Origin: Halobaculum gomorrense
Lineage (GTDB): Archaea > Halobacteriota > Halobacteria > Halobacteriales > Haloferacaceae
Length of the DNA: 64,000 nucleotides
Assembly (NCBI RefSeq): GCF_900129775.1
Contig: NZ_FQWV01000004.1
Coordinates: 124,001 to 188,000 of the forward strand
Reading direction: 5' to 3'
Of the stretch, positions 51,276 to 53,857 are shown piece after piece. The position numbers and the translations under genes were made by a program. Within the stretch, counting starts at the first letter, position 1; each line of letters opens with the position of its first letter. Below the pieces are notes generated by a model. The model saw only the letters and a program-made list of their open reading frames with translations, was not told the DNA's origin and ran no database searches.

Positions 51276-52289
51276 ATGAGCGAGGCCGACGACGCGGAGG
51301 CGAGCGAGGGGGCCGACGACGAGGCCGCCGGCCTCGCGTCCGGGCGGGAGGTCTGGATCGAGAAGTACCGCCCGCAGACGCTGGAGGACGTGTACGGCCA
51401 CGAGCAGATCGTCTCGCGGCTCCGCAGCTACATCGAGCAGGACGACCTGCCGCACCTCCTGTTCGCGGGGCCGGCGGGCGTGGGCAAGACCACAAGCGCC
51501 GTCGCCATCGCCAAGACCATCTACGGCGACGACTGGCGGACAAACTTCCTCGAACTCAACGCCTCCGACCAGCGCGGGATCGACGTGGTCAGGGACAGGA
51601 TCAAGAGCTTCGCGCGCTCGTCGTTCGGCGGACACGATTACCGGATAATATTCCTTGATGAAGCCGACTCCCTCACCGACGACGCCCAGTCGGCGCTTCG
51701 GCGGACGATGGAGCAGTTCTCCGACAATACGCGCTTCATCCTCTCGTGCAACTACTCCTCGAAGATCATCGACCCGATCCAGTCGCGGTGTGCGGTGTTC
51801 CGCTTCTCGCCCCTCTCCGACGAGGCCGTCGAGGCACAGGTTCGCGACATCGCCGCCGACCAGGACATCGAGATCACCGACGACGGACTCGACGCGCTGG
51901 TGTACGCCGCCAACGGCGACATGCGCCGCGCGATCAACTCCCTGCAGGCGGCCGCGACCACGGGGGAGATCGTCGACGAGCAGGCCGTCTACGAGATCAC
52001 CGCGACCGCGCGTCCCGAGGAGATCGAGGCGATGGTCGAGGACGCGCTCGCGGGCGACTTCTCGAAGTCGCGGGCGACGCTCGACACGCTGCTCACCGAG
52101 ACCGGGATGGCCGGCGGCGACATCATCGACCAGCTCCACCGGTCGGTGTGGGAGTTCGGCCTCTCAGACCGGGAGGCGGTGCGGCTGATGGAACACATCG
52201 GGGAGACCGACTTCCGGATCACCGAGGGTGCGAACGAGCAGGTACAACTGGAGGCGCTGCTGGCGTCGCTGGCGTTGGCCGAGGAGTAG
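51276..52289 (+). CDS. rfcS: Replication factor C small subunit
   Basis: AAA+ clamp-loader subunit, 337 aa. [19 protein letters not shown] (RFC box II), Walker [14 protein letters not shown], Walker [12 protein letters not shown], the SRC arginine finger [10 protein letters not shown], sensor 2 NGDMRRAIN and C-terminal collar helices. With RfcL it opens PCNA onto primed DNA. The ~20-residue acidic N-terminal extension is haloarchaeal. No intein is present. Convergent to the structured region and CDF gene. Confidence 0.97.
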
Positions 52290-52769
52290 TCACCCGCGGC
52301 GCGCGACCGCAACTGCGAGCCGACCCCGCGCCACCGCGGTCGTTCACACGATCCGAGGAGGAAGGCCACGGGTTTAGCCGTGGGAGGAATCTGACAGTCC
52401 TCCACAACTGCCGATAGCACGACTAGTTTCGTCACCCGATGGGGTAATTATCAACGGTTCTCTGACTGTAGTACACTCCCAGTCAGCCAACTGCGTTGAC
52501 TGTGGATGGGCCTCCGTAGGTAGGCCCTGAACTCGGGGAGGAATGACGCACTGCCTCTCCTGTCGCGTCTCGCGACAGTGAAGTGGTGGGAGTCCACCAA
52601 TAATTGAAGCGGTATGGGGCAGATTCGGACGCAGACCACGGGTCGGAACACCACGCAGGACACCCCTCCGTGTGCCCAACCTTCTGCCGTGCAACCCGCC
52701 CTCGACGGAGGACGAAGTGTGGGCCGGAACTCCGTGCGGGGAACGCCCACCACTTCAGTCGTAGGTAAC
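52290..52769. other. Hairpin-dense noncoding block with an IS200/IS605-type end
   Basis: Between convergent rfcS and the CDF transporter. At 52361-52388 GAAGGCCACGGGTTTAGCCGTGGGAGG matches the hairpin end I recall of haloarchaeal IS200/IS605 (IS1341-type) elements (arms CCACGG/CCGTGG, 52366-52383). Further hairpins follow: 52480-52485/52497-52502, 52508-52513/52522-52527, 52560-52567/52571-52578, 52584-52589/52594-52599 and 52705-52710/52730-52735; GAAGTGGTGGG at 52580-52590 also pairs with 52746-52756. All frames are short or stop-interrupted; plus-strand fragments NCVDCGW and MTHCLSC keep CxxC pairs. It may be a tnpB/guide-RNA relic, a PATE-like nonautonomous element or an independent RNA. 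Confidence 0.55.
52366..52383 (+). repeat. IS200/IS605-type terminal hairpin
   Basis: Six-base perfect stem CCACGG/CCGTGG with GTTTAG loop, followed by GAGGA. This is the imperfect-palindrome end that TnpA recognises in IS200/IS605 elements; no tnpA or intact tnpB is present. Confidence 0.5.
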
Positions 52770-53732
52770 TTACACCTCCGGCTCGATGTAGACGATCCGC
52801 ACACGGTCGTCGATGTCGCGGAGTTTCGATTCGATCTGCGTGATATCCTCGTCGATGTCGGTCGTCTCTGCGCCGCCGTCGAAGCTCACGTCGGCGGTGA
52901 CGAGCACGTTCTCCGGCCCGACGTACACCGTGCGGAAGCCGTCGATGTGGACGACGCCCTCGTGCTCGGCGATGGCCGACCGGAGCGTCGCCTCCACATC
53001 GGCGGGCAGCGACTCCCCGAGGATGAGCCGCTTGTTCTCCCAGGCGAGCGCGACGGCGAACCCCATGAGCAGCGCGCCGATGGCCAAGGAGGCGACGGCG
53101 TCGAACACCGGCATGTCGAGGTACCGCGCCAGCGAGATCCCGACGAGCGCGATGCCGGCACCCGACAGCGCGATGGTGTCCTCGGTGAAGGCGGTGAGCG
53201 TTGTCACGTCGCTGGTCTTGGAGAACGCCTCCCGGATGCCCGACCAGCCGTACGTCTCCATCTGCTGATTCAGCTCGGCGCGCGCCTTCGCGAACGCGTA
53301 CGACTCGAATGCGATGGCGCCGACAAGCACCGTGACGTTGATCCAGAACGGGTCCACCGGGACGAGGTCGGTGAAGTTGACGCCCGCGAGGATCACATCG
53401 GCGCGCTCGCCGCCGTGCGCCGGGTGCATAACCGCCTCGTAGCCGTGTTTCAGCGACTCCCAGCCGGCGATACCGAACAGGAGGACGGAGACGAGAAACG
53501 AGTAGAAGAACTGCGCTTTCCCGTAGCCGAACGGGTGCGCGCGGCTCGCCTCCCTGTTCGAGTAGCGGATGCCGACGAGGAGGAACACCTGGTTCCCGGT
53601 GTCGGAGACGGAGTGATACGTCTCGGAGAGCATCGACGGCGACCCGGTCAGCAGGAAGCCGAAGAACTTCAGCACCGCGATGGCGCCGTTGGCGATCAGC
53701 GCGGCGACGACGACGGACCTGCTGCCAGCCAT
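52770..53732 (-). CDS. Cation diffusion facilitator (Zn/Fe/Mn efflux)
   Basis: Membrane antiporter, 320 aa, six membrane helices. Helix 2 has the metal site SETYHSVSDTGNQ (H and D with spacing HxxxD) and helix 5 region ALSGAGIALVGIS; AHPFGYGKAQFFYSFL follows helix 2 as in all CDF proteins. The cytoplasmic C-terminal domain (LPADVEATLRSAIAEHEGVVHIDGFRTVYVGPENVLVTADVSF) is the usual ferredoxin-like metal sensor. Metal specificity not determinable. Leaderless promoter: CTTGATTACGG ~27 bp upstream on the minus strand. Confidence 0.92.
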   Translation of the reverse strand: MAGSRSVVVAALIANGAIAVLKFFGFLLTGSPSMLSETYHSVSDTGNQVFLLVGIRYSNREASRAHPFGYGKAQFFYSFLVSVLLFGIAGWESLKHGYEAVMHPAHGGERADVILAGVNFTDLVPVDPFWINVTVLVGAIAFESYAFAKARAELNQQMETYGWSGIREAFSKTSDVTTLTAFTEDTIALSGAGIALVGISLARYLDMPVFDAVASLAIGALLMGFAVALAWENKRLILGESLPADVEATLRSAIAEHEGVVHIDGFRTVYVGPENVLVTADVSFDGGAETTDIDEDITQIESKLRDIDDRVRIVYIEPEV

Positions 53733-53857
53733 TGGCGGGGCCTCTCGCCGGACCGTAATCAAGCCCGGTGGAGTCCGGCCCCGACAGGCCGTCCGCCGGT
53801 CGCTGTCGGTCGGTCAGTCGTCCGAAGCGTTAGAACCGTCCGCCTCCTCACGCCGGT

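Follow-up and report, generated by a model that had tools for sequence, protein, structure and literature searches.

The noncoding block between a replication factor C gene and a cation-efflux gene in the window, i.e., the whole 64,000-nucleotide stretch of Halobaculum gomorrense DNA analyzed here, is a complete nonautonomous element of the IS200/IS605 type (a PATE) without tnpA and tnpB. As judged by comparison with its relatives, its interior is a homolog of the omega RNAs of TnpB and not tnpB debris. The element was presumably mobilized by TnpA in trans, and its sole cargo is probably a putative promoter and an omega RNA of the TnpB type. The element, its ends and its neighbors are listed below.

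51276 to 52289, + strand: left neighbor, the intact gene for the small subunit of replication factor C (rfcS; ORF with Pfam matches Rep_fac_C, 9.6e-25, and AAA, 1.7e-18)
52343 to 52347, + strand: target or transposon-adjacent motif TTCAC, outside the element (from the empty sites and the TCAC/TCAT beside other members)
52348 to 52773, + strand (tnpB sense): nonautonomous, PATE-like IS200/IS605-type element of 426 bp, with boundaries from empty sites
52366 to 52383, + strand: left-end subterminal hairpin CCACGG-GUUUAG-CCGUGG, found at this position and in this form in almost every member
52746 to 52765, + strand: right-end hairpin CCCACCAC-TTCA-GTCGTAGG, with 6 of 8 pairs and two mismatches (8 of 8 pairs in most members)
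52770 to 52773, + strand: right-end terminal TTAC, whose complement is the source of the TAA stop of the neighboring gene
52770 to 53762, - strand: right neighbor, a cation-efflux (CDF) transporter gene (Pfam Cation_efflux, 1.8e-32)

The region of 52348–52773 is an insertion, because sister species carry precise empty sites. The junction between the RFC and CDF genes was continuous in five genomes of the same genus (G009, G006, G005, G004, and G002), where it read ..CTCAC followed by ACCTCCGGCTCGATG.. (or by ..ACTTCCGG.. or ..ACCTCGGG..). The empty sites in the sister species of Halobaculum read TCAC followed by ACCTCCGGCTCG or ACCTCC, and (C/A)CTCAC followed by ACCTCCGG or ..CTTCCGG. In the window, the order is TTCAC, the element ending in ...AACTTAC at 52773, and then ACCTCCGGCTCGATG. 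The bounds of 52361–52760 that had been proposed for this block in a previous sequence-only reading were therefore wrong. Comparison of the empty with the filled sites revealed no target duplication, and a short target oligonucleotide was retained at the left end. Insertion changed the stop codon of the CDF gene from TGA (GAGGTG-TGA in the empty site) to TAA (GAGGTG-TAA in the filled site), and the last four bases of the element supply this stop. The element was present once in its genome and was absent at the RFC/CDF locus in the other ten genomes of the same genus. Different inserts of about 700–850 bp, which resembled short genes, were found at the same junction in G003 (L106) and G008 (L107).

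The ends of the element matched those of elements of about 1.44 kb, of which the one inspected (L043) had a tnpB ORF inside. This autonomous element fixes the orientation, so that the + strand is the tnpB sense and the right end is the end of the guide RNA. The sequence-only reading had recognized the hairpin at 52366–52383, which is real, and had assigned the block correctly to haloarchaeal IS200/IS605 elements. This hairpin, placed at 52361 in that reading, is at the wrong end for a guide RNA; the comparison with L043 showed that it marks the left end and that the guide end is the hairpin at 52746–52765. Both near-terminal palindromes are found family-wide, and terminal inverted repeats are absent. 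The layout is that of a standard IS200/IS605 element, with the target at the left end and the cleavage tetranucleotide at the right end. No TnpB coding was found inside the element by tblastn with 26 TnpB proteins. With no conserved ORF in 426 bp, the element has no transposase gene and is too short for one.

Two 432-bp copies were found at unrelated sites of Halobaculum limi, a species of the same genus as the host genome. Identity was 98% between the two and about 75% between them and the window copy. The family search gave matches in 13 of 170 genomes, and an exact-pattern scan of genome contigs, whose pattern was too strict, gave 1 hit. The alignment contained the window copy and sixteen other copies, some of them partial. 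All aligned members ended in TTAC or a near variant, and nearly all complete ones had TCAC or TCAT at their left. No conserved reading frame was found across the aligned members, in line with the earlier remark that the block holds no long clean ORF (none was conserved or clean across the family), and a protein-coding interior was therefore rejected.

Being single in its genome and having an imperfect right-end hairpin, the window copy probably inserted long ago and is no longer mobile. The 11-bp long-range pairing described in the sequence-only reading, between GAAGTGGTGGG (52580–52590) and CCCACCACTTC (52746–52756), exists as complementarity, and extends to 12 bp in the window copy. None of the other members tested, however, had more than 8 bp of it; the pairing is thus peculiar to the window copy, where it arose partly because the right-end hairpin has mutated. 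A functional switch formed by this helix was rejected for the same lack of conservation.

The features of the interior, and the predicted guide beside it, are as follows.

52426 to 52451, + strand: putative archaeal promoter (GTTTCG at 52426–52431 and the AT-rich box TAATTAT at 52445–52451)
52469 to 52615, + strand: core of a TnpB-type omega RNA (model R1), with covarying helices; R1 also matches the 3′ ends of tnpB genes, in the sense orientation
52476 to 52507, + strand: core helix 1, with 8 of 10 pairs changed on both sides
52508 to 52527, + strand: core helix 2, GGGCCU...AGGCCC, with 96.9% of cells paired and double changes in 2 of 6 pairs
52533 to 52600, + strand: core helix 3 (52533–52536 with 52597–52600), with double changes in 3 of 4 pairs
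52609 to 52699, + strand: extra structured domain of the stand-alone copies, missing from tnpB omega RNAs (from covariation and length classes)
52774 to 52793, + strand: predicted guide segment, the flank adjoining the right end, as expected from the mechanism of TnpB

The case for the RNA rests on the comparison of relatives, because the + strand of one copy folds no better than its shuffles (z = -0.63; 27 of 100 shuffles folded equally well). The z value of the - strand was -2.30. Folding of a single copy was therefore dropped as evidence for structure. Similarly, several of the further perfect short stems in the sequence-only reading do exist between 52480 and 52580, but the density of hairpins is within chance for a single sequence this rich in GC. 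Among relatives, both partners had changed in 13 of the 20 consensus pairs of the core (52469–52615). The core scored 0.425 for covariation, compared with 0.169 (sd 0.022) after shuffling and at most 0.106 with the partner slid. Compensatory changes were found in the core as well as in the extra domain, and such changes imply selection on the RNA structure. An RNA of the - strand was disfavored by the G-U pairs among the shared pairs, which numbered 43 on the + strand vs. 26 on the - strand, and by the overlap with tnpB, which sets the sense.

Model R1 is a covariance model of 52469–52615 whose training set consisted of tnpB-less copies only, with no intact tnpB element. A search with R1 over 392 genomes of the order gave matches in 227 genomes and in 74 of 95 genera. 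The matches inspected fell into two classes, scoring 49–72 bits and 80–147 bits, respectively. In the weak class, 24 of the 25 inspected loci overlapped a tnpB gene at its 3′ end and in the same orientation. In the strong class, none of 22 loci had tnpB nearby in a test with a single query, and the wider set of 26 TnpB queries found a fragment in one, L156. Given that R1, trained without intact tnpB elements, repeatedly matched tnpB 3′ ends, which is independent evidence, the stand-alone RNA is a homolog of the TnpB omega RNA. Omega RNAs are encoded within or overlapping the tnpB of the same element; this RNA is not, and is thus a stand-alone variant. The stand-alone class was found in about 24 of the 392 haloarchaeal genomes, from nine family-level groups, a count of the R1 matches of at least 79 bits that includes a few of the lowest (L158–L160) without a confirmed standard right end. 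Among the three options offered by the sequence-only reading, the nonautonomous copy is retained, together with surviving homology to a guide RNA, while a one-off product of decay and an unrelated separate RNA are discarded.

At L156 (1151–1501), a TnpB fragment of about 117 residues, 58% identical to the TnpB of L063, abuts an R1 core with a right end. This locus is a possible deletion intermediate or chimera.

From the start of R1 to the right end, the stand-alone RNAs were 303–417 nt long vs. 157–169 nt for the tnpB-linked ones, a gap that is due to the extra domain. In the stand-alone copies this domain spans 140–250 nt and is located upstream of the terminal hairpin. In 12 copies, its 27 pairs had 96% of cells paired, and their covariation was 0.254 vs. 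0.141 after shuffling. In L111, L124, and L132, about 40–60 additional bases with strong inverted repeats (GGAAGACG..CGTCTTCC) follow the extra domain, ahead of the right-end hairpin. In 23 aligned stand-alone copies, the A+T fraction was 0.67 at -25 to -21 of the RNA core, and a recurrent GGTTTCG was located about 15–20 nt further upstream. The AT-rich box, which precedes the core by about 25–30 nt, suggests a putative, dedicated archaeal promoter of the RNA. The predicted guide segment matched the TCAC-adjacent sequence of the empty site at 20 of 20 positions in G004 and at 19 of 20 in G009, G006, G005, G003, and G008. At the level of sequence, the geometry is that of an omega RNA, which ends at the right end and whose guide flank matches an empty site bearing TCAC.

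Omega or sot RNAs are known at haloarchaeal tnpB genes (PMC12558985). Similar to those of the IS1341-type tnpB genes, the stand-alone RNA has the core helices, the GGGAGTCCACyGAnAA motif, the sense strand, a terminal hairpin at the right end and a guide in the flank. Different from them, it has no tnpB, is longer by the extra domain, has a promoter-like box of its own and has no match to Rfam sot0042 (RF02656), which matched only other positions of the same loci and other tnpB genes. No Rfam match to the element was found at the gathering threshold over the window or at E ≤ 1 on seven family loci, and the same was true of HEARO (RF02033). HEARO RNA is the omega RNA of IscB elements, integrates at ATGA/GTGA and also occurs without an ORF. 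The complementary TCAT/TCAC targets and the ORF-less forms found here resemble it. An identity with IscB/HEARO, which the ATGA/GTGA target had suggested, was rejected, as HEARO gave no match and the overlap of the homologous RNA with tnpB is in the opposite strand sense.

The PATEs of Haloquadratum walsbyi are short, transposase-free elements with near-terminal, IS605-like palindromes; they cause no target duplication and carry a short target oligonucleotide at the left end, and one of them, HqIRS71, reportedly lacks coding capacity and resembles a longer stretch from the terminus of IS605-type elements (PMC3119063). The element in the window agrees with them in its short length, lack of a transposase gene, near-terminal palindromes, left-end target and absence of duplication. 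Unlike those PATEs as described, with which it was compared by description only, it has a covarying omega-RNA interior, an added domain and a putative promoter (PMC3119063). Searches of open-access literature brought up no report of comparable stand-alone omega RNAs. A tnpB-less lineage in which an omega RNA has been conserved and enlarged across many genera goes beyond the two reports (PMC3119063; PMC12558985).

On the opposite strand, TCAT reads ATGA and TCAC reads GTGA. Among the 18 members of the TCAT type, an ORF of at least 60 codons began at that ATG in 12 (34% for control TCAT sites in the same flanks), and in 10 that TGA closed an open frame of 100 codons or more (control, 5%). For L138 and L140, the left boundary had been chosen by eye and with the start codon visible; leaving out these two gave counts of 10 of 16 and 9 of 16. 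Thus, the elements often sit inside ATGA overlaps of stop and start codons. The complemented right-end GTAA restores the upstream stop and the downstream ATG is kept, which leaves the neighboring start and stop codons intact. This preference may reflect target choice or the survival of harmless insertions.

As to enzymes that could be borrowed, a single Y1 TnpA is present in the host genome, along with seven TnpB loci of full size, of which one has an R1-like omega RNA. This best match scored 31.5 bits vs. 126.7 bits for the element itself; by the R1 model, none of the seven loci has an omega RNA close to that of the element. A further, lower-scoring R1 match was found in 16 of the 17 genomes with stand-alone copies, and Y1 TnpA in 13 of the 17. 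This co-occurrence supports a model of borrowed enzymes weakly, because tnpB-type matches are common in the order. No Y1 TnpA was detected in the whole genome of H. limi (G001), despite its two 98%-identical copies. The H. limi copies echo the puzzle of Haloquadratum, i.e., mobile elements and no working transposase. Geobacillus genomes reportedly offer a parallel: Meers et al. are said to have described, in 2023, PATEs beside TnpB/IscB elements in a genome with trans-acting TnpA and TnpB. Those PATEs are likewise gene-less derivatives of IS200/IS605 elements, from a different lineage.

The explanation that we favor, with moderate confidence, is a stand-alone, RNA-only element that is mobilized by TnpA in trans and then kept by a resident TnpB that targets the empty site. 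Y1 TnpA would move the element in trans as single-stranded DNA. A transcript would begin near 52470, continue past the right end into the flank, and terminate in the guide at 52774–52793. The TnpB of a resident related element would load this RNA, and the complex would recognize TCAC/TTCAC together with the guide ACCTCCGGCTCGATGTAGAC, i.e., the empty site, and cut it. Repair of the cut empty site from a filled copy would restore the element, whereas the filled site would be spared since TTAC, and not TCAC, lies beside the guide match. The retention of the element would thus be served by the nuclease of another element. Against this explanation are the lack of a detectable Y1 TnpA in H. limi, the lack of a close omega RNA at the host TnpB loci and the damaged right-end hairpin of the window copy; the extra domain could also block the binding of TnpB.

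If only the ends matter, the interior would be a fossil omega RNA without present function, carried along by TnpA in trans. PATEs are common in Haloquadratum and some arose from IS605-type elements by core deletion (PMC3119063), and the single window copy with its damaged hairpin would be expected of such a passive PATE. This is nevertheless rather unlikely, given that tnpB-less copies show compensatory changes in both the core and the extra domain, and given the conserved promoter-like box and an architecture conserved across 9 family-level groups. The extra domain of 140–250 nt between the core and the guide-proximal hairpin could instead be the inhibitory part of a decoy or competitor RNA that keeps TnpB sequestered and prevents the loading of guides. 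Such a role seems improbable, since most members keep both the guide-proximal hairpin and the TTAC end, as well as the TCAC/TCAT target, as would be expected for a working guide. By analogy with TnpB-derived repressors, which use guide RNAs, a domesticated RNA might also regulate a host gene, e.g., the cation-efflux gene or rfcS. The element does lie directly at the 3′ end of the cation-efflux gene, whose stop codon it provides, and many relatives are located at start or stop codons. However, its absence from this locus in the other ten genomes of the genus, and the location of members beside unrelated genes, which implies no conserved regulatory target, make domestication highly improbable.

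If the RNA of our favored explanation works in trans, TnpB nucleases would serve gene-less satellites and not just their own elements. This would change the account of how PATEs are retained and how TnpB persists, and retention driven by a nuclease would partly answer how gene-less PATEs spread in genomes without working transposases. The RNAs would also provide guide scaffolds that have evolved in nature and contain an added domain. The use of ATGA/GTGA junctions and the rebuilding of stop codons would explain why intergenic insertions are tolerated. More tentatively, and with considerable doubt, such elements could be haloarchaea-wide, guide-only satellites that have dropped transposase and nuclease, kept the omega RNA and enlarged it by a new domain, home by borrowed TnpB and insert harmlessly at ATGA/GTGA with a rebuilt stop.

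Several minor observations were made at related loci. In the left arm of two stand-alone members, L142 and L140, a short divergent ORF lies at about 1310–1455 on the - strand (MVKHLHVTLNDEDYERLREAKDKHGGTWEEWLLAQLE.. and MKHLTIKFEDETQFERIKAEKQRRGLTWRGVLVEWAE.., respectively); the two are similar to each other and had no Pfam match. At a tnpB locus of the host genome (L065, 1848–2027), a sub-threshold match to Rfam HgcC (35.9 bits, with a cut-off of 50) overlaps a weak sot0042 match, which suggests that HgcC, too, may be an omega RNA of TnpB. Finally, a remnant of about 125 bp with only the right end (L040, 1388–1512) gives an amino acid permease gene of H. limi its stop codon.
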